A stretch of 36,841 bases of DNA from positions 1-36,841 of IMG/VR virus record IMGVR_UViG_3300025030_000278; one strand, written 5' to 3'. The notes beneath the pieces are model-generated. The model was not told the origin of the DNA, searched no databases, and saw only the letters and a list, made by a program, of their open reading frames with translations. The translations under genes and the position numbers were made by a program. This stretch comes from a virus. The first letter of the stretch is position 1. Each line of letters begins with the position of its first letter. Of the stretch, positions 2,425 to 23,079 are shown piece by piece.

Positions 2425-4533
2425 ATGCAACTAACGACCCATGACATTGCCGAGCGCCGGGAACGTGATGGACGGACGACCCTCTGGCTCTCCGAAAGGT
2501 TGCTGATTGAGGAATTGGATATTTCAGAAATGTACCTCCGAATGAAAGCACGGAGGGAATATCTGGAATCCGTCTCCCCTGCCAAAAAAGACAAAGACAT
2601 CCTCCCCGACACGGGCAAGTCGTGGCGGTACGCCCGCATCAACGGGGCCTTCTATTACGATTACGACCGCCTCCCAGCCAACCGCAGGGAAGCGCTGCCG
2701 GGAAAGGAAAAGCTGCTCCGGTTGGCGCAGCAAACCGACCTCGACACCTACCATAACCACCTGAAACGTCAGGTGGAGGCCATCTTAAATACCGATTTTC
2801 AACAGTACCTGCACCTTTACAGGGGCTACGACGACGACCATGCTCACACACTCGCTAAAGGCTGCGCCGTGTTGATGTTCGCAGCCGACACCCTCCGGAA
2901 CGGTGGCGCAGACAGCGCCACCGCTTTCCTGAACGAGCTTGCAAACGTGCTGAACCTCGTCGGGTGCGAGTACCTGCCGAAGCACTGGCGCAGGTTGAAA
3001 GAAAAGGTGGATACTATATTAAAAGGTGTACCCGTGCAGGAGGTGATGAAGCTCAAGCGGGAAGGTAACCAGAACGCCGCCCGCCTCAACGACGAGGAAG
3101 TAAAATCCTGGCTGCTCCAGATGCGCAACATGCCCGCCAACTACACCAACGCCTTCATCATCCGCAAGCTGCGGCTGATGTGTACCCTGGCGGAAAAGCG
3201 GGTGCCTTCAAAAAGCTGGTTTGAACTCGAATTGGCCAAACCGCTGACCAAGTTTCTGACCACCGCCCGCTTCGGCTCCGGCAAGCTCGGCGACAAGTGG
3301 AAAGGCTACATCCCGATTGAAAACGCCCTCCATTCCGGCGACTGCTGGATGATGGACGGCACCAGGGCCAACATGATTGCCTTTCGGAACGCCGAAGGCA
3401 AGGAAGAATTTCTATACTGGCTGGCCTGCTACGACGTGCATTCCGGCGACCTGCTCGGCCTGCATTTCGACACGAAAGAGGACCGCTGGGGCTACCTGAA
3501 TGCCTTGAAAATGTCGGTCTCCACTACCGGCTATCTGCCTTACGAAATCGTCATTGACCGCTTCCCCGGCCACAACACCGAGGAAATCGAACTGCTGATA
3601 AAACGCCTCGAACGCCTCGGCGTGAAGGTGACTATAACCTCCAAAAAGACGGGCAAATCGAAGCTCGAAAGGTTCTTTGAAACATTCCAGTCGGTGTTCA
3701 TGGCCGAATCGCCCTGGTATTACGGCGAAGGAGTACAGAGCAGCCGCACAGCCGCCCACCGCAGCCCCGAATACCTCAAGGCGCAAACAAAACGCCGCAA
3801 TAACGAGCAGTGGGATTTCAACGCCGCCTGGTCGGAGATGCTCCGCCTGGTGAGCATGTACCGGGACACACCCCTGGCCGAATACTCCGAAAAGTGCGCA
3901 GGCGTGGCCCAAAGCCCCCGCCAACTGCACGAGGCCAGCGACCGCCCGCACAGCGTGAAGGTAGAACCCTGGGACGCCGTGGAGCTTTTCGGCCTCGAAA
4001 AAACCGTGACCATCCGCCACGGCGGACTGATAAAAACAGACATCCAAAAAGTGGAATACTTCTACCGGGTGGACGAATATACGACCCTTAGCGAGCACAC
4101 AAAGGTGCGGCTCTGCTACGACATGGAAGACCTCACGACAGTCTATCTCTACGCCGACAGCGACGAGATAAACCGCCAATATCTCGGCACCGCCACCGAG
4201 CAGCGCCGGGCGCAGCTATACGGCCCCGATGCCGATATGTCGGGAATCGGAAAGGGAAAGGAAAAGATTGCCGCAATCGAAGCGGCCCGCAAAGAACACT
4301 TCAAAGTGCTGACCCAGGTGGCCGACGACGGCGACGAGGTGGACATCCTCCTCGCAGGGCTGGCCCAAAAAGGCGCAAAATCCAACGCCGAAACCGCCTG
4401 GCTCCACGAGCGAACCGCCGAATGGAAACCGACCGAAAAAAACAAGCCCCGCCTCCTCGATACGGAGGAAGCGGACGAATTGGACGAAGACACTTTTGCC
4501 CTCGTGCCGAACGCAGCACGGAAGCAGTACTAA
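2425..4533 (+). CDS. Mu-type transposase A (DDE)
   Basis: A 702-residue transposase that would bind the end sites and carry out replicative transposition and integration. The catalytic triad is visible in an rve-type core: Asp311 (WMMDGT), Asp378 (EIVIDRF) and Glu415 (KLERFFET). The first two Asp are 67 residues apart, as in Mu A (D269/D336); the second gap is shorter than in Mu. N-terminal residues about 1-80 form a winged/helical DNA-binding region, followed by the long alpha-helical end-binding region (to about 250); the C-terminal ~150 residues follow the Mu-transposase C-terminal layout. It is directly followed by its own terminator (4570-4598). Confidence 0.93.
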   Translation: MQLTTHDIAERRERDGRTTLWLSERLLIEELDISEMYLRMKARREYLESVSPAKKDKDILPDTGKSWRYARINGAFYYDYDRLPANRREALPGKEKLLRLAQQTDLDTYHNHLKRQVEAILNTDFQQYLHLYRGYDDDHAHTLAKGCAVLMFAADTLRNGGADSATAFLNELANVLNLVGCEYLPKHWRRLKEKVDTILKGVPVQEVMKLKREGNQNAARLNDEEVKSWLLQMRNMPANYTNAFIIRKLRLMCTLAEKRVPSKSWFELELAKPLTKFLTTARFGSGKLGDKWKGYIPIENALHSGDCWMMDGTRANMIAFRNAEGKEEFLYWLACYDVHSGDLLGLHFDTKEDRWGYLNALKMSVSTTGYLPYEIVIDRFPGHNTEEIELLIKRLERLGVKVTITSKKTGKSKLERFFETFQSVFMAESPWYYGEGVQSSRTAAHRSPEYLKAQTKRRNNEQWDFNAAWSEMLRLVSMYRDTPLAEYSEKCAGVAQSPRQLHEASDRPHSVKVEPWDAVELFGLEKTVTIRHGGLIKTDIQKVEYFYRVDEYTTLSEHTKVRLCYDMEDLTTVYLYADSDEINRQYLGTATEQRRAQLYGPDADMSGIGKGKEKIAAIEAARKEHFKVLTQVADDGDEVDILLAGLAQKGAKSNAETAWLHERTAEWKPTEKNKPRLLDTEEADELDEDTFALVPNAARKQY

Positions 4534-4569
4534 AGAATAGTAGTTTGTACATAGTAAGTTCTGGGATTG

Positions 4570-4598
4570 GTAGCCGGGCAACGGCCCGGCTACTTTTT
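4570..4598 (+). terminator. Intrinsic terminator after transposase A
   Basis: Perfect 10-bp GC-rich stem (GTAGCCGGGC 4570-4579, GCCCGGCTAC 4584-4593), loop AACG, then TTTTT. It would stop or thin transcription between A and the downstream B gene. Confidence 0.85.
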
Positions 4599-4632: not shown

Positions 4633-4836
4633 ATGCAAGCATTCTTTTTCATCGGCTCTGAGCCATCGAAGCAAAACAAACCTTTCATCGTCTTCGCAAA
4701 TAGCGAGGAGGAAGCCCTTTCAATTGCCTCAAATGTGCTGTCAGAAAAGGCATTCGGCAACCCTGAAAAATTAACGCCAGGAGCCGCTCAACTTATTTCC
4801 GAAGTCAATAATAAGGGCAAGTTTCAGAGCTATTAA
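4633..4836 (+). CDS. Small hypothetical protein
   Basis: A 67-residue protein beginning MQAFFFIGSEPSKQNKPFIV, with no recognised family. It has a short beta-strand-rich start and a helical acidic middle (EEEALSIASNVLSEK), resembling small standalone alpha/beta domains. It lies between two terminators (4570-4598 and 4909-4934) together with a tRNA-like minihelix, so it may form a separate transcription unit. The A-rich leader just before the ATG supports the start. Confidence 0.5.
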   Translation: MQAFFFIGSEPSKQNKPFIVFANSEEEALSIASNVLSEKAFGNPEKLTPGAAQLISEVNNKGKFQSY

Positions 4837-4841
4837 TGTTC

Positions 4842-4875
4842 GGGAGCGTGGGTTCGACTCCCGCCGCTCCCACCA
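4842..4875 (+). ncRNA. tRNA-like minihelix 1 (acceptor stem + T-arm + CCA)
   Basis: GGGAGCG (4842-4848) pairs perfectly with CGCTCCC (4865-4871). Between them is a T-arm: GTGGG, T-loop TTCGACT, CCCGC (4848-4864), with the conserved GGTTCGA core. ACCA (4872-4875) follows, as an encoded discriminator plus CCA. The first base of the T-stem is shared with the last base of the acceptor strand. There is no D-arm or anticodon arm. This is the shape of a minimal RNase P substrate. Whether it is processed or charged is unknown. Confidence 0.6.
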
Positions 4876-4908: not shown

Positions 4909-4934
4909 GCCGGGGCAAAGGCCCTGGCCTTTTT
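4909..4934 (+). terminator. Intrinsic terminator after the minihelix unit
   Basis: GCCGGGGC (4909-4916) pairs with GCCCTGGC (4921-4928) with one G-T wobble; loop AAAG; TTTTT at 4930-4934. Confidence 0.65.
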
Positions 4935-4958: not shown

Positions 4959-5066
4959 ATGGTATTAATCATCAAAATCGGACTGACCTGCGCCGTCATG
5001 TTTTTCTTGGTGGCCTACAACCACGCAGCCTGTAAGAAGGCAGAAGACGAGAAAAACACCCCCTGA
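4959..5066 (+). CDS. Tiny single-pass membrane protein
   Basis: A 35-residue reading frame (MVLIIKIGLTCAVMFFLVAY, then a charged tail ending EDEKNTP). One membrane segment at residues about 2-20, with a Lys/Asp/Glu-rich cytoplasmic or periplasmic tail. It is preceded by the same A/T-rich leader (TTTTAAAACCTTTTAAAA) that precedes the capsid gene, which supports translation. Position before muB recalls the small membrane proteins (such as Kil) in Mu early regions, but no similarity is claimed. Confidence 0.45.
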   Translation: MVLIIKIGLTCAVMFFLVAYNHAACKKAEDEKNTP

Positions 5067-5131: not shown

Positions 5132-6124
5132 ATGAGTACGCCCATCAACATCAACAAAATGCACTTCAGCCAGATTTCCGACCTCGCCCGCAAAGAATGC
5201 GAGCGCCTCGGCTCTCAGTCCCGGCTCGCCGTAAAATGCGACGTTAGCGACGCAACCATTTCCCAAATCATCACGGGCAAATTCGACCAGGTGAGGGACG
5301 GCATGTGGCGGAAAGTCGCCGCCGTCCTCGACTGGCGTCCTGACGGCTGGCAAATCGTGGAGACCTCCAACACCCGTTCCGTGCATCAAATCATGTCGGA
5401 TGCGAAAGAGCAGCGCCTCTGGCTCACCGTATGCGACGGGGCCGGGGCCGGTAAAACCAGCGGGGCGAAGACATTCGTCGCAACGAACCGGGAGAACGTG
5501 TATTACCTCGAATGCGACGAGTGGAACAAAGGCGAGTTCGTGCGCCGTTTCGCCCGCTCCCTCGGCATCTCTTTCCTCGGATGCGGCACCTACTACGACC
5601 TGCTGGATAAGATAGTGCGAGACTTTCAACAGAAGTCCGACGAGCGGCCCCTCATCATCCTCGACCAGGCCGACAAGCTCCGTGACGCCGCTTTCCGCTG
5701 CCTCATCCCCCTGTTCAACGGCCTCGAAGACAAGGCCGGGATGGTGGTCATGGGCGTCGGCCACATACGCAAACGCATCCGCCGCAACGTCGAGCTTCAA
5801 ACTTGCGGCTTCGACGAAATAGAAAGCCGGTTCGGGCGCAAATACATCAACCTGCCGGGCCACACCCGCACCGACGTGGCTAACATCTGCCGGGGCAACG
5901 GCCTCGAAGACCCCGAAACAATCAAGCGTATTTGGGCGGAAGTGTGGGGCGAGGAAAAGGGCAGGTCCTCTATTGAAGGCCGGGAGGTGAACGTAATCAA
6001 GGACAACCGCCGCCTCAAACGCTGCATACAGCGGGAGATACTTATGCTTTCAGAAGCCTCCCCACCGCCCCCTCCAAGGGAGGGGGAGGCTTACGCCGAA
6101 GCGCTGGAATCCGTAGCGGCATAA
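5132..6124 (+). CDS. MuB-like target-DNA activator ATPase
   Basis: A 330-residue AAA+ ATPase. N-terminal HTH at about residues 30-52 (SRLAVKCDVSDATISQIITG), as in Mu B. Walker A GAGAGKTS at residues 103-110 (Lys108); Walker B LIILDQAD with Asp178. Mu B binds target DNA non-specifically, delivers it to the transposase and gives target immunity. The C-terminal ~25 residues contain a proline run (SPPPPPREGEAYAE) that is encoded by a GC palindrome inserted in frame (6056-6090) and is probably not part of the ancestral protein. Confidence 0.92.
   Translation: MSTPININKMHFSQISDLARKECERLGSQSRLAVKCDVSDATISQIITGKFDQVRDGMWRKVAAVLDWRPDGWQIVETSNTRSVHQIMSDAKEQRLWLTVCDGAGAGKTSGAKTFVATNRENVYYLECDEWNKGEFVRRFARSLGISFLGCGTYYDLLDKIVRDFQQKSDERPLIILDQADKLRDAAFRCLIPLFNGLEDKAGMVVMGVGHIRKRIRRNVELQTCGFDEIESRFGRKYINLPGHTRTDVANICRGNGLEDPETIKRIWAEVWGEEKGRSSIEGREVNVIKDNRRLKRCIQREILMLSEASPPPPPREGEAYAEALESVAA
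6056..6090. repeat. GC palindrome inserted in frame in the MuB C terminus
   Basis: CCCCCTCC (6068-6075) and GGAGGGGG (6079-6086) form an 8-bp stem, with partly overlapping outer GCCTCC/GGAGGC arms. It resembles the CCCC...GGGG palindromes found between tail genes in this window but lies inside a coding sequence near its 3' end. Confidence 0.6.
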
Positions 6125-6157: not shown

Positions 6158-6637
6158 ATGGCAAAAAAAGTTACCGAAGCCGATGCAAAAGCGGCAATGA
6201 AAGAATGGCTCGACAACGACGTACAGCTTGCAAAGGTGCAGGCAGAGAAAAGGGTGAAAATCACCCCGCTCGTACAGAAGTACGAGGGGCTGGAAAGGGA
6301 ACTGACGGACAAAAAGCTACAAGCTGCCGAGGTGCTGGAAGCCTATGCAGACCAGAACCGGGGCACCATTTTGCCAAGCGGCAAGAAGTCAACCGGCTTC
6401 GAGGGCGGCACGATCGGCTGGAAATCCGGCCCGCCCAAACTCGTGCTGGCAAACGAGGACGAATTTGGTTGGGAAGAAGTCCTGGCGATGGCCAGGAAAG
6501 TGCTACCGGAGTTTGTGTTGCAAAAGGACGAACTCGACAAGTCGGGCATCCTGCGCAACGCCGACGGAATCGGCGACAAGCTGGCGAAAGCCGGCCTCGC
6601 CGTCGAACAGAAAGAAACCTTCTACGTGAAGGCGTGA
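6158..6637 (+). CDS. gam: Mu Gam-like host-nuclease inhibitor
   Basis: A 159-residue Gam-family protein. Mu Gam is a Ku-like dimer that binds double-strand DNA ends and blocks RecBCD-type exonucleases. Visible signatures: helical N terminus with DNDVQLAKVQAEKRVKITPL, the central KKSTGFEGGTIGWKSGPPKL strand region, and the C-terminal LRNADGIGDKLAKAGLAVEQKETFYV. Length is close to the family norm (~170). It sits 33 bases after muB, as in the Mu early operon. Confidence 0.9.
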   Translation: MAKKVTEADAKAAMKEWLDNDVQLAKVQAEKRVKITPLVQKYEGLERELTDKKLQAAEVLEAYADQNRGTILPSGKKSTGFEGGTIGWKSGPPKLVLANEDEFGWEEVLAMARKVLPEFVLQKDELDKSGILRNADGIGDKLAKAGLAVEQKETFYVKA

Positions 6638-6710: not shown

Positions 6711-7166
6711 ATGCAAGAATACCTCATCACCCTCTACGGAAAGCAGTCATCCAGGAGCGTCCGAATCGGATACCGGGAAGGGAAGTTAGCATCCTTCTCC
6801 ATCCCTGAAAACGAAAATTTCGACGAGGTTGGGACTATCTTCCTGCTCAACTGGCTGCGCTCTCAAACCGTCGAAACGGAAATGCTAAAAAACGTGGATG
6901 ACATCACGCTGGTAGTCCGCTTCCGGGCGGAAGCCATCGTTGCCGACATTAGTTTTGATGTGTTTTGGAACGCCTACGGCTATAAAGTAGGCAACAAAAA
7001 AAGGGCTGAAAAAGAGTGGAACAGGCTCACTTCCGAAGACCGCATTCTTTGCTTGCGGGGCATCCGCCGCTACAATATGTGGATAGCGCAGCGCCGCAAC
7101 CAGGATAAACTTTACCCCGAAACCTTTCTGTCACAATCCAGGTGGGAAAACGAATACAGCTTATGA
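6711..7166 (+). CDS. DnaT-like replication protein (C-terminal motif)
   Basis: A 151-residue protein; the start chosen is ATG 6711 (MQEYLITLYG) after an A/C-rich leader, not the upstream in-frame ATG at 6639 that overlaps the gam stop region. The C-terminal half carries the motif F-x-x-F-W-x-x-Y ... K..A...W, ending with T-F-L-S-Q-S-R-W-E. This is typical of the C terminus of phage and plasmid replication or helicase-loader proteins (DnaT/DnaD-associated, usually 'hPaTfLn..rWe'). The N-terminal half is not recognised. It overlaps the next gene by ATGA, so the two are translationally coupled. Likely role: helping load the host replisome after transposition. Confidence 0.55.
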   Translation: MQEYLITLYGKQSSRSVRIGYREGKLASFSIPENENFDEVGTIFLLNWLRSQTVETEMLKNVDDITLVVRFRAEAIVADISFDVFWNAYGYKVGNKKRAEKEWNRLTSEDRILCLRGIRRYNMWIAQRRNQDKLYPETFLSQSRWENEYSL

Positions 7167-8354: not shown

Positions 8355-8380
8355 TCGGTTTTTTCAACATTGTTTGGTCT

Positions 8381-8409
8381 CCGCCCCCTTTCGTGGGGCG
8401 GGGCTTTTT
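8381..8409 (+). terminator. Intrinsic terminator after the spanin-like gene
   Basis: CGCCCC (8382-8387) pairs with GGGGCG (8395-8400), loop CTTTCGT, followed by GGGC and TTTTT (8405-8409). Confidence 0.7.
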
Positions 8410-8452
8410 GGCCGGAACGGTTCCAGCGGGTTCGATTCCAGCTCCGGCCTCA
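8410..8452 (+). ncRNA. tRNA-like minihelix 2 (acceptor stem + T-arm)
   Basis: GGCCGGA (8410-8416) pairs perfectly with TCCGGCC (8443-8449), giving a 7-bp acceptor-like stem. The 17 bases directly before the 3' strand form a T-arm: GCGGG, loop TTCGATT, CCAGC (8426-8442), with one G-A mismatch and the conserved GGGTTCGATTCC core. Only a 9-base linker (8417-8425) replaces the D- and anticodon arms. TCA follows the stem instead of NCCA. It begins at the end of the T-run of the preceding terminator. Confidence 0.55.
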
Positions 8453-8513: not shown

Positions 8514-9164
8514 ATGAGCGCCAAAAGAAAGGCCATCGGAATTTCCGATTTCCTGAACAAAAAATTTGACAGCTTCCACTTCGACGGAGCCTGGAAAGCC
8601 AGCTTCGGCGAGCCGGAGAAAAATTTCAAGATGGTCGTCTATGGCAACTCTGGCAACGGCAAAACGGACTTCTGCGTCAAGCTCGCAAAGTACCTCTCCC
8701 GATTCGGGAAAGTGTATTACAACAGCTTCGAGGAGGGCGTCAGCAAGACCCTACAGGATGCCTTCGTGCGCAACGACATGCGGGAAGTGACAGGCAGGGT
8801 CATCGTCGGCGACCGGGAAAACTTCACCGACATGATGCAGCGCCTCGGCAGCCGGAACAGTCCGCATTTCGTGGTGATTGACAGCCGGGACTATATGAAA
8901 TTTACCACAGAGCAGTACAAAATGCTCACCGAGCGCCACCACCGGAAAAGCCTCATCGTCGTCTGCTGGGAGATGAACAGCGCCCCCAGGGGCGAACACG
9001 GAAAACAGATGCTCTATATGTGCGACATCAAAGTACACGTGAAGAATTTCGTAGCCATCCCACGCTGCCGCTACGGGGGAAACGGGCGCTTCACAATATG
9101 GGAGCGCCCGCTCGACCACCAGGAAGAAGCGCCCAATTTGTTCAACCAAACGCAACAGATATGA
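8514..9164 (+). CDS. RecA/RadA-like P-loop ATPase
   Basis: A 216-residue ATPase with Walker A GNSGNGKT (residues 44-51, Lys50) and Walker B FVVIDS (Asp123), in the order and spacing of the RecA/RadA/DnaB core. It lacks the extended DNA-binding and multimerisation parts of RecA, so it is a minimal core. Such ATPases are often seen in Bacteroidota phages and mobile elements; a role in DNA replication or repair is likely but the substrate is not shown by the sequence. The stop overlaps the next start (ATGA). Confidence 0.65.
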   Translation: MSAKRKAIGISDFLNKKFDSFHFDGAWKASFGEPEKNFKMVVYGNSGNGKTDFCVKLAKYLSRFGKVYYNSFEEGVSKTLQDAFVRNDMREVTGRVIVGDRENFTDMMQRLGSRNSPHFVVIDSRDYMKFTTEQYKMLTERHHRKSLIVVCWEMNSAPRGEHGKQMLYMCDIKVHVKNFVAIPRCRYGGNGRFTIWERPLDHQEEAPNLFNQTQQI

Positions 9165-21273: not shown

Positions 21274-21681
21274 ATGAAAAATTTTAAAACCTTTTTGATG
21301 CTGGCAATTGTGGGCGCTGCCCTGGCTTTTGCCTTCACGCCTAATGACGACGGTGGCATCGTGTTTCCTTTCGGGAAAGCGACAGAATTAGACGTGACGC
21401 CCTCCGGCGTGACGGCTGCGGCCACCGTGTTCAACAATATGACGATTCTGGATTTGGGAACGCTGGACACGGCCATCACGCTCAACATCACCCTCGAAAC
21501 GGGCATCCGTACCGGGGCGATTTGCATCGTGAAAGCTGCGAGCGATGCCACCAGCGGGCGAAACGTGACCTTCGGCAGCGGCGCTACGGCGGCGGTGCTT
21601 TCCGGCACGACGAGCAAGACAAAAACGGCCTGGCTGGTGTACGACGGAACCGAATTTATCGGGGTGGGGCAGATTGACTAA
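21274..21681 (+). CDS. Exported beta-rich protein
   Basis: A 135-residue protein with an N-terminal signal (MKNFKTFLMLAIVGAALAFAFTP) and a Thr/Ala/Gly-rich beta body (ATELDVTPSGVTAAATVF, TLDTAITLNITLETG). The body resembles head-fibre or decoration domains. Its export signal would take it out of the cytoplasm, where capsids assemble; here, unlike its neighbours, no Gln follows the predicted cut. Function unknown. Confidence 0.5.
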   Translation: MKNFKTFLMLAIVGAALAFAFTPNDDGGIVFPFGKATELDVTPSGVTAAATVFNNMTILDLGTLDTAITLNITLETGIRTGAICIVKAASDATSGRNVTFGSGATAAVLSGTTSKTKTAWLVYDGTEFIGVGQID

Positions 21682-21685
21682 TCAC

Positions 21686-21738
21686 CCCCTTTGTCCCCCT
21701 CAAGGGGGATTCACCCCCCTGCCCCCCTCAAGGGGGGT
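21686..21738. repeat. Two adjacent CCCCCT-CA-AGGGGG palindromes
   Basis: Stems CCCCCT/AGGGGG (21695-21708) and CCCCCCT/AGGGGGG (21722-21737) with very short loops. Copies of the same type occur at 14179 and 28824. They precede the tRNA gene. Confidence 0.65.
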
Positions 21739-21743
21739 AATAT

Positions 21744-21818
21744 CGCACCGTAGAGCAGTTGGTAGCTCGTGAGGTTCATACCCTCAAGGTCGCAGGTTCG
21801 AGTCCTGCCGGTGCCACA
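21744..21818 (+). tRNA. tRNA-Met-like (anticodon CAT) in the late operon
   Basis: A full cloverleaf can be drawn: acceptor CGCACCG/CGGTGCC (21744-21750, 21809-21815; position 1:72 is a C-C mismatch), D-stem GAGC/GCTC with loop AGTTGGTA, anticodon stem TGAGG/CCTCA with loop TTCATAC (anticodon CAT, 21777-21779), variable loop AGGTC, T-arm GCAGG/TTCGAGT/CCTGC, then ACA. CAT could be read by Met or, if modified, Ile. The 1:72 mismatch recalls initiator tRNA, but the anticodon stem lacks the three consecutive G-C pairs of an initiator. CCA is not fully encoded. Confidence 0.75.
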
Positions 21819-21822
21819 ATAG

Positions 21823-21877
21823 ATTCCCTGCGGGAATGGAAAACGTGGACGGGTTCCCTGCGGGAATGGAAAAAAAA
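21823..21877 (+). repeat. Duplicated hairpin leader before the sheath gene
   Basis: TTCCCTGCGGGAATGGAAAA occurs twice (21824-21843 and 21854-21873). Each copy is a 5-bp TTCCC/GGGAA hairpin followed by an A-rich tail, and the second ends 9 bases before the sheath ATG. A variant with compensatory changes in the stem is at 28508-28526. Confidence 0.75.
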
Positions 21878-21882
21878 GTAAC

Positions 21883-23079
21883 ATGGCAAATCGGACGGTA
21901 TCAATAAATATTTTGAACGGCCAGCTTGGCCAGCTTGGTGTTTCCGAAGACAACGTTTTCGGGCTGGTGCTGCAAAGCGCAGTGGCACCGAGCGGCCTGG
22001 CGCTGCTGACGCCGTTGCAAATCACGTCCTTGCAGGATGCGGTGGACGTGGGCATCACGGCGGCTTTCGACACGGCCAACACGGTTATCTGCTATAAGGT
22101 ATTGGCAGAGTTCTACGCCGAGGCCGGGAGCGGTACGCCGCTGTGGATTATGTTCACGGCGCAAACGGTGACGCTGACGGTTGCCTTCGACGTGGCGAAC
22201 GAACTGACCTATTTCGGCAAGCTGCAAACGGCAGCAGGCGGGAAAATCAGGATTATGAGCATGGTCCGCTCCTTTGCTGGAGGCTACTCCGCTACGACGA
22301 CGGACGGCGTGGATGACGATGTGCTGACGGCGATGACGAAGGCGCAAGCGCTCGTGGAAGAATTCCGCACCAGGCACCAACCCTTTGCGGTGGTGATGCC
22401 GGGACATTATTACCAGGACAACGAGAGCAGCTTGAAAGACATTTCGACCTACACCAACAAGTGGGTGGCGGGCATGATTGGCGACACGGCCACCGGCAGC
22501 GGCGTGGCCATCGGGGTGCTGATGGGCAGGCTGGCGAAAATACCGGTGGACCGGCAACCCGGCAGGGTGAAGGACGGGGCGCTGGCGATCACTGCGGCTT
22601 ACCTGAACACGACGGCCATCAACCTGTCCGAAAGCAACGGCGCTGTGCGCTCTATTGAGACGAAGGGCTGGATTACGTTCACGAACTACGTGAACAAGAG
22701 CGGTTTCTTTTTCACGAACGACTGGACGGCCACGGCCCGCACGGACGATTTCGACCGGCTGGCAAGGGTGCGCATTATCCAGAAGGCGGAGCGCATCGTC
22801 TATGATGTCTATCTCAACGAGATACTCGACGACGTGAAGCTCGACCCGGATACGGGCAAGATGAGTACCAATGCTGCGAAATACTATCAGCAAATCATCC
22901 AGCGGGCGATAGACAACAGCCTGACGGCTGACGATGAAATAAGCGGGTTGCAAATACAGATAGACCCGGAGCAAAACGTGCTAACGACTGGTGAAATCTG
23001 CGTGGATGTCAGGATAGTCCCTGATGCCTACGCCAACTCTTTCAAAATCAACCTGGGCTTCAATAACCCGGCTCTTTAA
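21883..23079 (+). CDS. Tail sheath protein (DUF2586-type)
   Basis: A 398-residue contractile sheath subunit. N-terminal MANRTVSINILNGQLG, a beta domain with threonine-rich strands (VTLTVAFDVANELTYFGKL), then the C-terminal sheath core: VRIIQKAERIVYDVYLNEIL and the final RIVPDAYANSFKINLGF strand that links to neighbouring subunits. Its place directly before the tube gene and the Bacteroidota-type DUF2586 pattern support the call. The sheath contracts at infection to drive the tube through the envelope. Confidence 0.82.
   Translation: MANRTVSINILNGQLGQLGVSEDNVFGLVLQSAVAPSGLALLTPLQITSLQDAVDVGITAAFDTANTVICYKVLAEFYAEAGSGTPLWIMFTAQTVTLTVAFDVANELTYFGKLQTAAGGKIRIMSMVRSFAGGYSATTTDGVDDDVLTAMTKAQALVEEFRTRHQPFAVVMPGHYYQDNESSLKDISTYTNKWVAGMIGDTATGSGVAIGVLMGRLAKIPVDRQPGRVKDGALAITAAYLNTTAINLSESNGAVRSIETKGWITFTNYVNKSGFFFTNDWTATARTDDFDRLARVRIIQKAERIVYDVYLNEILDDVKLDPDTGKMSTNAAKYYQQIIQRAIDNSLTADDEISGLQIQIDPEQNVLTTGEICVDVRIVPDAYANSFKINLGFNNPAL

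Follow-up and report, generated by a model that had tools for sequence, protein, structure and literature searches.

In this report, we examine a tRNA minihelix that lies between the MuA- and MuB-like genes of a transposable, Mu-like phage. The window, meaning the whole stretch of DNA that was analysed, is virus record IMGVR_UViG_3300025030_000278, 36,841 bases long; a prior reading made from the letters alone (the sequence-only reading) had rightly called it Mu-like, as MuA, MuB, Gam, MuF and the Mu portal are all present. The element occupies positions 4842 to 4875 on the plus strand, as do the features around it. Upstream lies the gene for a Mu A-like DDE transposase (2425-4533; PHROG 310, E 1e-25; Mu-transpos_C), followed by a terminator-like 11-bp hairpin and T-run (4569-4594) and by an open reading frame (ORF) of 67 amino acids and unknown function (4633-4836), the stop codon of which ends 5 nt before the minihelix. 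Past the element, a second terminator-like structure, an 8-bp hairpin (4909-4928) with a T-run reaching 4934, begins after 33 nt, and a possible small ORF of 35 amino acids, read from the sequence (4959-5066), starts after 83 nt; the prior description of a 67-residue gene flanked by two terminators was thus accurate. The gene for the MuB-like AAA target activator, an ATPase (5132-6124; PHROG 296, E 2e-36; AAA_22), and Gam (6158-6637) follow, and the window further encodes a Mu-type portal, MuF protein, prohead protease, capsid and tape measure. The 67-amino-acid ORF also has a sub-threshold Pfam match to the Sua5/YciO/YrdC domain (tRNA t6A; E 0.0065), which may be noise.

The element, found from its sequence, its fold score and an acceptor + T-arm scanner, reads GGGAGCG-TGGG-TTCGACT-CCCG-C-CGCTCCC-A-CCA. 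Its acceptor stem is formed by 4842-4848 and 4865-4871 (7 bp) and its T-stem by 4849-4852 and 4860-4863 (4 bp), with a 7-nt T-loop at 4853-4859, a bulged C at 4864, a discriminator A at 4872 and CCA at 4873-4875; the D-arm and anticodon arm are missing, and the spacer between acceptor and T-arm is 0 nt. Folded alone, these 34 nt give exactly the acceptor/T-arm hairpin, at a minimum free energy of -20.7 kcal/mol and a z-score of -3.7 that none of 200 shuffles equalled. The sequence-only reading had therefore described the acceptor, the TTCGACT loop, the ACCA end and the missing arms correctly, but the T-arm that it called canonical lacks a full stem: in place of 5 bp, the stem has 4 bp and the bulged C (alternatively, the two stems can be drawn as 6 bp + 5 bp).

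Several standard identities were considered and set aside. The element has the acceptor and T-arm of the tRNA family (RF00005), including the T-loop consensus, yet without D- or anticodon arm it scores 12.1 bits against a cut-off of 29 in Rfam, and ARAGORN is silent. It is not an intrinsic terminator, since a T-run is missing after 4871 and distinct terminator hairpins stand at 4569 and 4909, and a chance hairpin is excluded by the shuffles together with the strand bias and covariation described below. As transfer-messenger RNA (tmRNA; RF00023) it reaches 19.2 bits against a cut-off of 47, and ordinary tRNAs score alike. This match, in which the 3' half of the element is found at E 1e-5, could be taken to suggest an attachment-site remnant, left when an element with a tyrosine recombinase picked up the 3' end of a tRNA or tmRNA gene from its host. 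We regard such an origin as highly improbable: the tmRNA model matches ordinary tRNAs equally well, transposable phages do not use tRNA attachment sites, the element includes the 5' acceptor strand, which in relatives covaries, and its 3' half, searched against 61 Bacteroidota genomes at a tolerance of one mismatch, had no match.

The kin of the window phage are transposable phages and prophages of Bacteroidota, among them hankyphage p00, Porphyromonas phages, Winogradskyella phage Peternella and Flavobacterium phage fF4, with further MuA relatives in Saprospiraceae, Chitinophagales and Fibrisoma assemblies. Single-protein searches with the window's MuB and MuA returned no close kin, giving nothing or distant relatives only, and alignments were therefore used instead. 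The best identities to the window proteins were at most 43% for MuB relatives and 47% for MuA relatives, indicating sparse sampling of the window's own lineage. The DNA of the 4842 region, searched against named phages, gave no match, and neither did a degenerate pattern for the element among the 2.9 million viral contigs of IMG/VR.

The class to which the element belongs is nevertheless clearly conserved, so that the conservation in relatives asked for by the sequence-only reading is lacking for the exact 4842 sequence and present for the architecture. MuB relatives from IMG/VR gave 119 non-redundant loci of Bacteroidota transposable phages (1.51 Mb), in which a scan at a fixed threshold found 42 acceptor + T-arm structures, or top halves, on the MuB (coding) strand and 4 on the opposite strand, compared with 1.3 per strand in shuffles; the same scan found none in phages Mu and B124-14. 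The spacer that separates acceptor from T-arm measures -1 to 101 nt. A canonical anticodon arm, scored as a 5-bp stem and 7-nt loop with U33 and a purine at 37, is present in 5 of the 42, and 9 have no space for any, whereas the same scoring recovered 20 of 20 Fibrisoma host tRNAs and 18 of 20 crAss001 tRNAs. Most, indeed nearly all, of these elements were missed by ARAGORN and Rfam. The T-loop consensus is retained across elements while acceptor sequences vary, and the C74 that follows the discriminator is kept, as in 16 of 16 host tRNAs; CCA itself is not encoded by most copies.

Because a scan that requires an acceptor could make intact acceptors an artefact, a control was run that starts from perfect T-arms and makes no selection on the acceptor. 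It returned 41 T-arms on the coding strand and 3 on the opposite strand (about 1.7 expected). A perfect 7-bp acceptor partner accompanies 12 of the 41, against 0.5 expected from random upstream sequence, and an acceptor score of at least 6 is reached by 31, against 11.6 expected; judged by eye, a genuine partner of 5-7 bp is missing from only about 3 of them. Broken top halves are thus rare and broken bottom halves the rule, which neutral decay of captured tRNAs would not yield. The same result bears on 4842 itself, which the sequence-only reading had suggested might be a decayed tRNA and which could in principle be a functionless captured tRNA gene with positions 8-48 deleted. The uniqueness of the 4842 copy fits such an origin, as does the resemblance of many elements to tRNAs with broken anticodon arms. 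We consider it improbable, and for the class it is disfavoured: random decay would hit top halves too, yet nearly all T-arms retain their acceptor partner; moreover, stem changes are compensated, and position and strand are non-random. Compensation is seen, for example, in the homologous pairs L087 and L121 (acceptor and T-stem) and L145 and L150 (T-stem). The structure is real and part of a recurrent, selected class.

Among the loci surveyed, L087 (4437-4510) and L121 (5171-5241) share, besides their homologous acceptor and T-arm, a non-tRNA-like spacer containing an ATG (ATGGAT...) that makes them superficially tmRNA-like. The tRNA-like genes at L010 (7247-7397, minus strand), L007 (13949) and L074 (1336) have anticodon loops of 6 or 8 nt and are labelled tRNA-??? 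by ARAGORN.

Scanned for T-loop, T-stem and acceptor together, the window contains just three elements, at 4842, 8410 and 21744, and for spacers of at most 12 nt it holds two where shuffles predict 0.25 per window. The second minihelix and the tRNA noted by the sequence-only reading are therefore both present and are the sole other such structures, although the tRNA, called near-complete, proved to be complete. The second minihelix (8410-8452, plus strand) has its acceptor at 8410-8416/8443-8449, a 9-nt linker at 8417-8425, a T-arm at 8426-8442 and a 3' end of T-C-A. It is weaker than 4842, with one T-stem mismatch and a fold z-score of -0.8, and stands directly after a terminator-like hairpin (8379-8403), 61 nt before an ORF at 8514. 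Both minihelices are assigned to the broader class by architecture and position alone. The initiator-like tRNA with anticodon CAT (21744-21816, plus strand; Rfam 63.7 bits) lies 66 nt before an ORF at 21883 (DUF2586); its homologue in L042 (14451) differs in two acceptor pairs by compensatory changes. Tandem C-run/G-run hairpins precede this tRNA (21660-21740), and a repeated TTCCCTGCGGGAATGG follows it (21825-21875).

The elements of the class are closely tied to gene starts. The median distance from element end to the next start codon is 39 nt, and 66% lie within 60 nt, compared with 13% of random positions. Both A and B genes could be identified in 105 phages; among these, an element stands upstream of A in 25 and between A and B in 4, counting one phage in both sets, placing the window in the latter and including loci fetched by the minihelix pattern. 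In the 95 A genes free of that bias, a strong element occurs within 60 nt of the ATG in 8, where 0.17 would be expected. The site upstream of A is occupied by a complete tRNA-Ser in L052, by tRNA-like forms in L005, L074 and L165, and by minihelices in L013, L029, L060, L067, L118, L122 and fF4. At this site position and top half are preserved and the bottom half is free, so that, judged by sequence, full tRNAs and minihelices appear interchangeable. Such placement bears on the idea of a mimic acting in trans, whereby a stable small RNA would be released to engage host RNase P, EF-Tu, the CCA enzyme or a defence system directed at tRNAs. In its favour, the use of tRNA mimics by phages is known, CCA is encoded at 4873-4875, and there are several copies per phage; a trans-acting RNA would not need tight spacing to the next ATG, however, and most copies lack an encoded CCA, which makes this explanation quite improbable.

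Covariation is clearest in a subfamily of the form YCCCG-AGTGGCAYAC-T-arm-CGGGA-NCAAA, which is found repeatedly in front of the transposase gene and other genes, most copies ending 10-45 nt short of an ATG. In IMG/VR, the pattern retrieved 18 contigs, mostly true copies. Across 16 distinct copies, 96.6% of cells are paired, both sides have changed in 7 of 11 pairs, and the covariation score is 0.468, compared with 0.123 when shuffled and at most 0.164 when slid; every T-stem pair covaries, including the closing pair (G-C to U-A). Several phages carry two to four copies. The cultured Flavobacterium columnare phage fF4 (MN850656.1) has one at 2399-2440, upstream of the transposase, and one at 7118-7159 in another gap, both unannotated. 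The subfamily pattern had no match in 395 Bacteroidota genomes, consistent with a phage-borne element; R1, a covariance model of the transposase-upstream minihelix, also found nothing in these genomes with 15 candidates scored per genome, the pattern search being the better evidence. In the window, R1 matched neither 4842 nor 8410 and matched the T-arm of the 21744 tRNA in part (E 1.2). Elsewhere, a short minihelix-like hairpin in L106 (3198-3227, minus strand), possibly from a non-Bacteroidota phage, is followed after about 20 nt by an ATG that has a Shine-Dalgarno-like AAAGGAG.

Some subfamily copies are preceded by a conserved inverted repeat, ATTACTAT-N27-ATAGTAAT and variants, or CACTAC/GTAGTG. 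The repeat stands immediately upstream of the minihelix in L114 (5990-6970), L117 (reverse strand), L013, L015 and L067, and the two probably form a cassette of operator or promoter plus leader. In L114 and L117, the unit of inverted repeat, minihelix and A-rich leader is repeated before several genes. With an operator-like repeat in front, the mRNA may begin with the minihelix itself, which keeps alive the alternative that a structured element at the 5' (or 3') end of the mRNA acts without being cleaved, stabilising that end of the message or setting how the next gene is translated, perhaps bound by a host tRNA-binding protein. The repeated unit and the 10-45 nt distance to ATGs suit this alternative. 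Even so, unrelated acceptor sequences occupy the same site, so that a sequence-specific reader is unlikely, T-loop identity and C74 retention indicate tRNA enzymes, and plain hairpins would suffice for stability; we judge such a leader possible, though unlikely.

We favour instead a cis-acting processing element. A T-loop consensus and C74 retained while acceptors vary point to a reader of tRNA shape and not of sequence, and gaps of 10-45 nt would leave no room for a promoter, making the element part of the downstream mRNA wherever a gene is transcribed through it. A precedent exists for the proposed cut: bacterial RNase P cuts model hairpins of acceptor, T-stem and T-loop at the correct position, and non-tRNA substrates of the enzyme include phage M3 RNA and the phage-derived C4 antisense RNA (PMC11143913). 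The 4842 element resembles the AT1-type substrates in both a coaxial stem of about 12 bp with a T-loop (11 bp and one bulged C here) and a 3' RCC(A) contact sequence (ACCA, 4872-4875), and, as tRNA punctuation would have it, it sits at a coding-strand gene junction, 5 nt past the stop of the 67-amino-acid ORF. In the nascent mRNA of the phage, host enzymes of tRNA maturation, above all RNase P, would recognise the acceptor and T-arm; RNase P would act at the 5' end of the element, with RNase Z and CCA enzymes possibly at its 3' end. The cut would separate cistrons and give the downstream message a defined 5' leader, structured or very short, in a phage counterpart of tRNA punctuation. This role, already raised by the sequence-only reading, best fits the relatives in structure and position (junctions, coding strand, short ATG distance, compensation and interchange with full tRNAs).

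We give a probability of about 0.5 to the reading that places 4842 in a class of tRNA mimics that lack the anticodon, act in cis and are cut by host tRNA-maturation enzymes. What is observed for the class is its structure, its strand and position, the covariation among relatives and the missing anticodon domain; recognition, cleavage and a benefit to expression are what we infer from them. Several points weigh against the reading: 77 of the 105 A genes have no element beside them, where an operator-like inverted repeat precedes a copy, transcription may start with that copy, which would then not be a site within a polycistron, and 4842 has no homologue, so that selection on the window's own copy is argued from the class. 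Moreover, the terminator 33 nt downstream makes 4842 a 3'-untranslated feature and not a leader, and more likely a 3'-end element of the message of the 67-amino-acid gene. There it would form or protect that 3' end, or, if transcription reads through, act upstream of the small ORF at 4959; the copy is likely functional. More tentatively, Bacteroidota transposable phages may have turned tRNAs into portable, anticodon-less junction marks that recruit host RNase P, together with RNase Z, to cut viral mRNA.

If true, natural minimal substrates of RNase P would serve as recurrent gene-boundary marks, a new phage means of shaping transcripts, and tRNA punctuation would extend beyond organelles to a viral system in bacteria. 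Standard tRNA finders and Rfam are blind to these elements, which are consequently unannotated even in fF4, and searches of databases and open-licence literature returned nothing relevant on comparable phage elements. The cultured fF4 phage-host pair makes the idea directly testable, and the elements form a natural gradation, from complete tRNA down to the minihelix alone, that helps to ask what the top half of tRNA is for.

Known systems share parts of this picture. In mitochondrial tRNA punctuation, tRNA-shaped elements stand at gene borders. MALAT1/mascRNA, in which a tRNA-like element processes the 3' end of a transcript, is alike in the processing role proposed here and differs in being a eukaryotic long non-coding RNA with a cloverleaf-like element at the 3' end only. 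M3 and C4 are individual RNAs of E. coli phages, unlike multi-copy minihelices in mRNA leaders. The tRNA-like domain of tmRNA (RF00023) likewise joins acceptor and T-arm with a D region that lacks a stem, whereas the phage minihelix has no tag ORF or long insert. M3 and C4, as non-tRNA substrates of RNase P, resemble the phage elements in being phage transcripts (PMC11143913). Closest in architecture are the AT1-type minimal substrates, with the same acceptor, T-stem, T-loop and 3' ACCA (PMC11143913); those are laboratory constructs, whereas the phage elements, known here from sequence, are natural, repeated and placed at gene junctions. As in mitochondria, where tRNA-shaped elements abut genes and where tRNAs with missing arms have been reviewed (PMC4394434, PMC7609411, PMC12221289), the phage elements border genes in reduced form; mitochondrial tRNAs also serve translation, however, and the armless ones drop the D- and/or T-arm, whereas the phage elements retain the T-arm and drop the anticodon arm.
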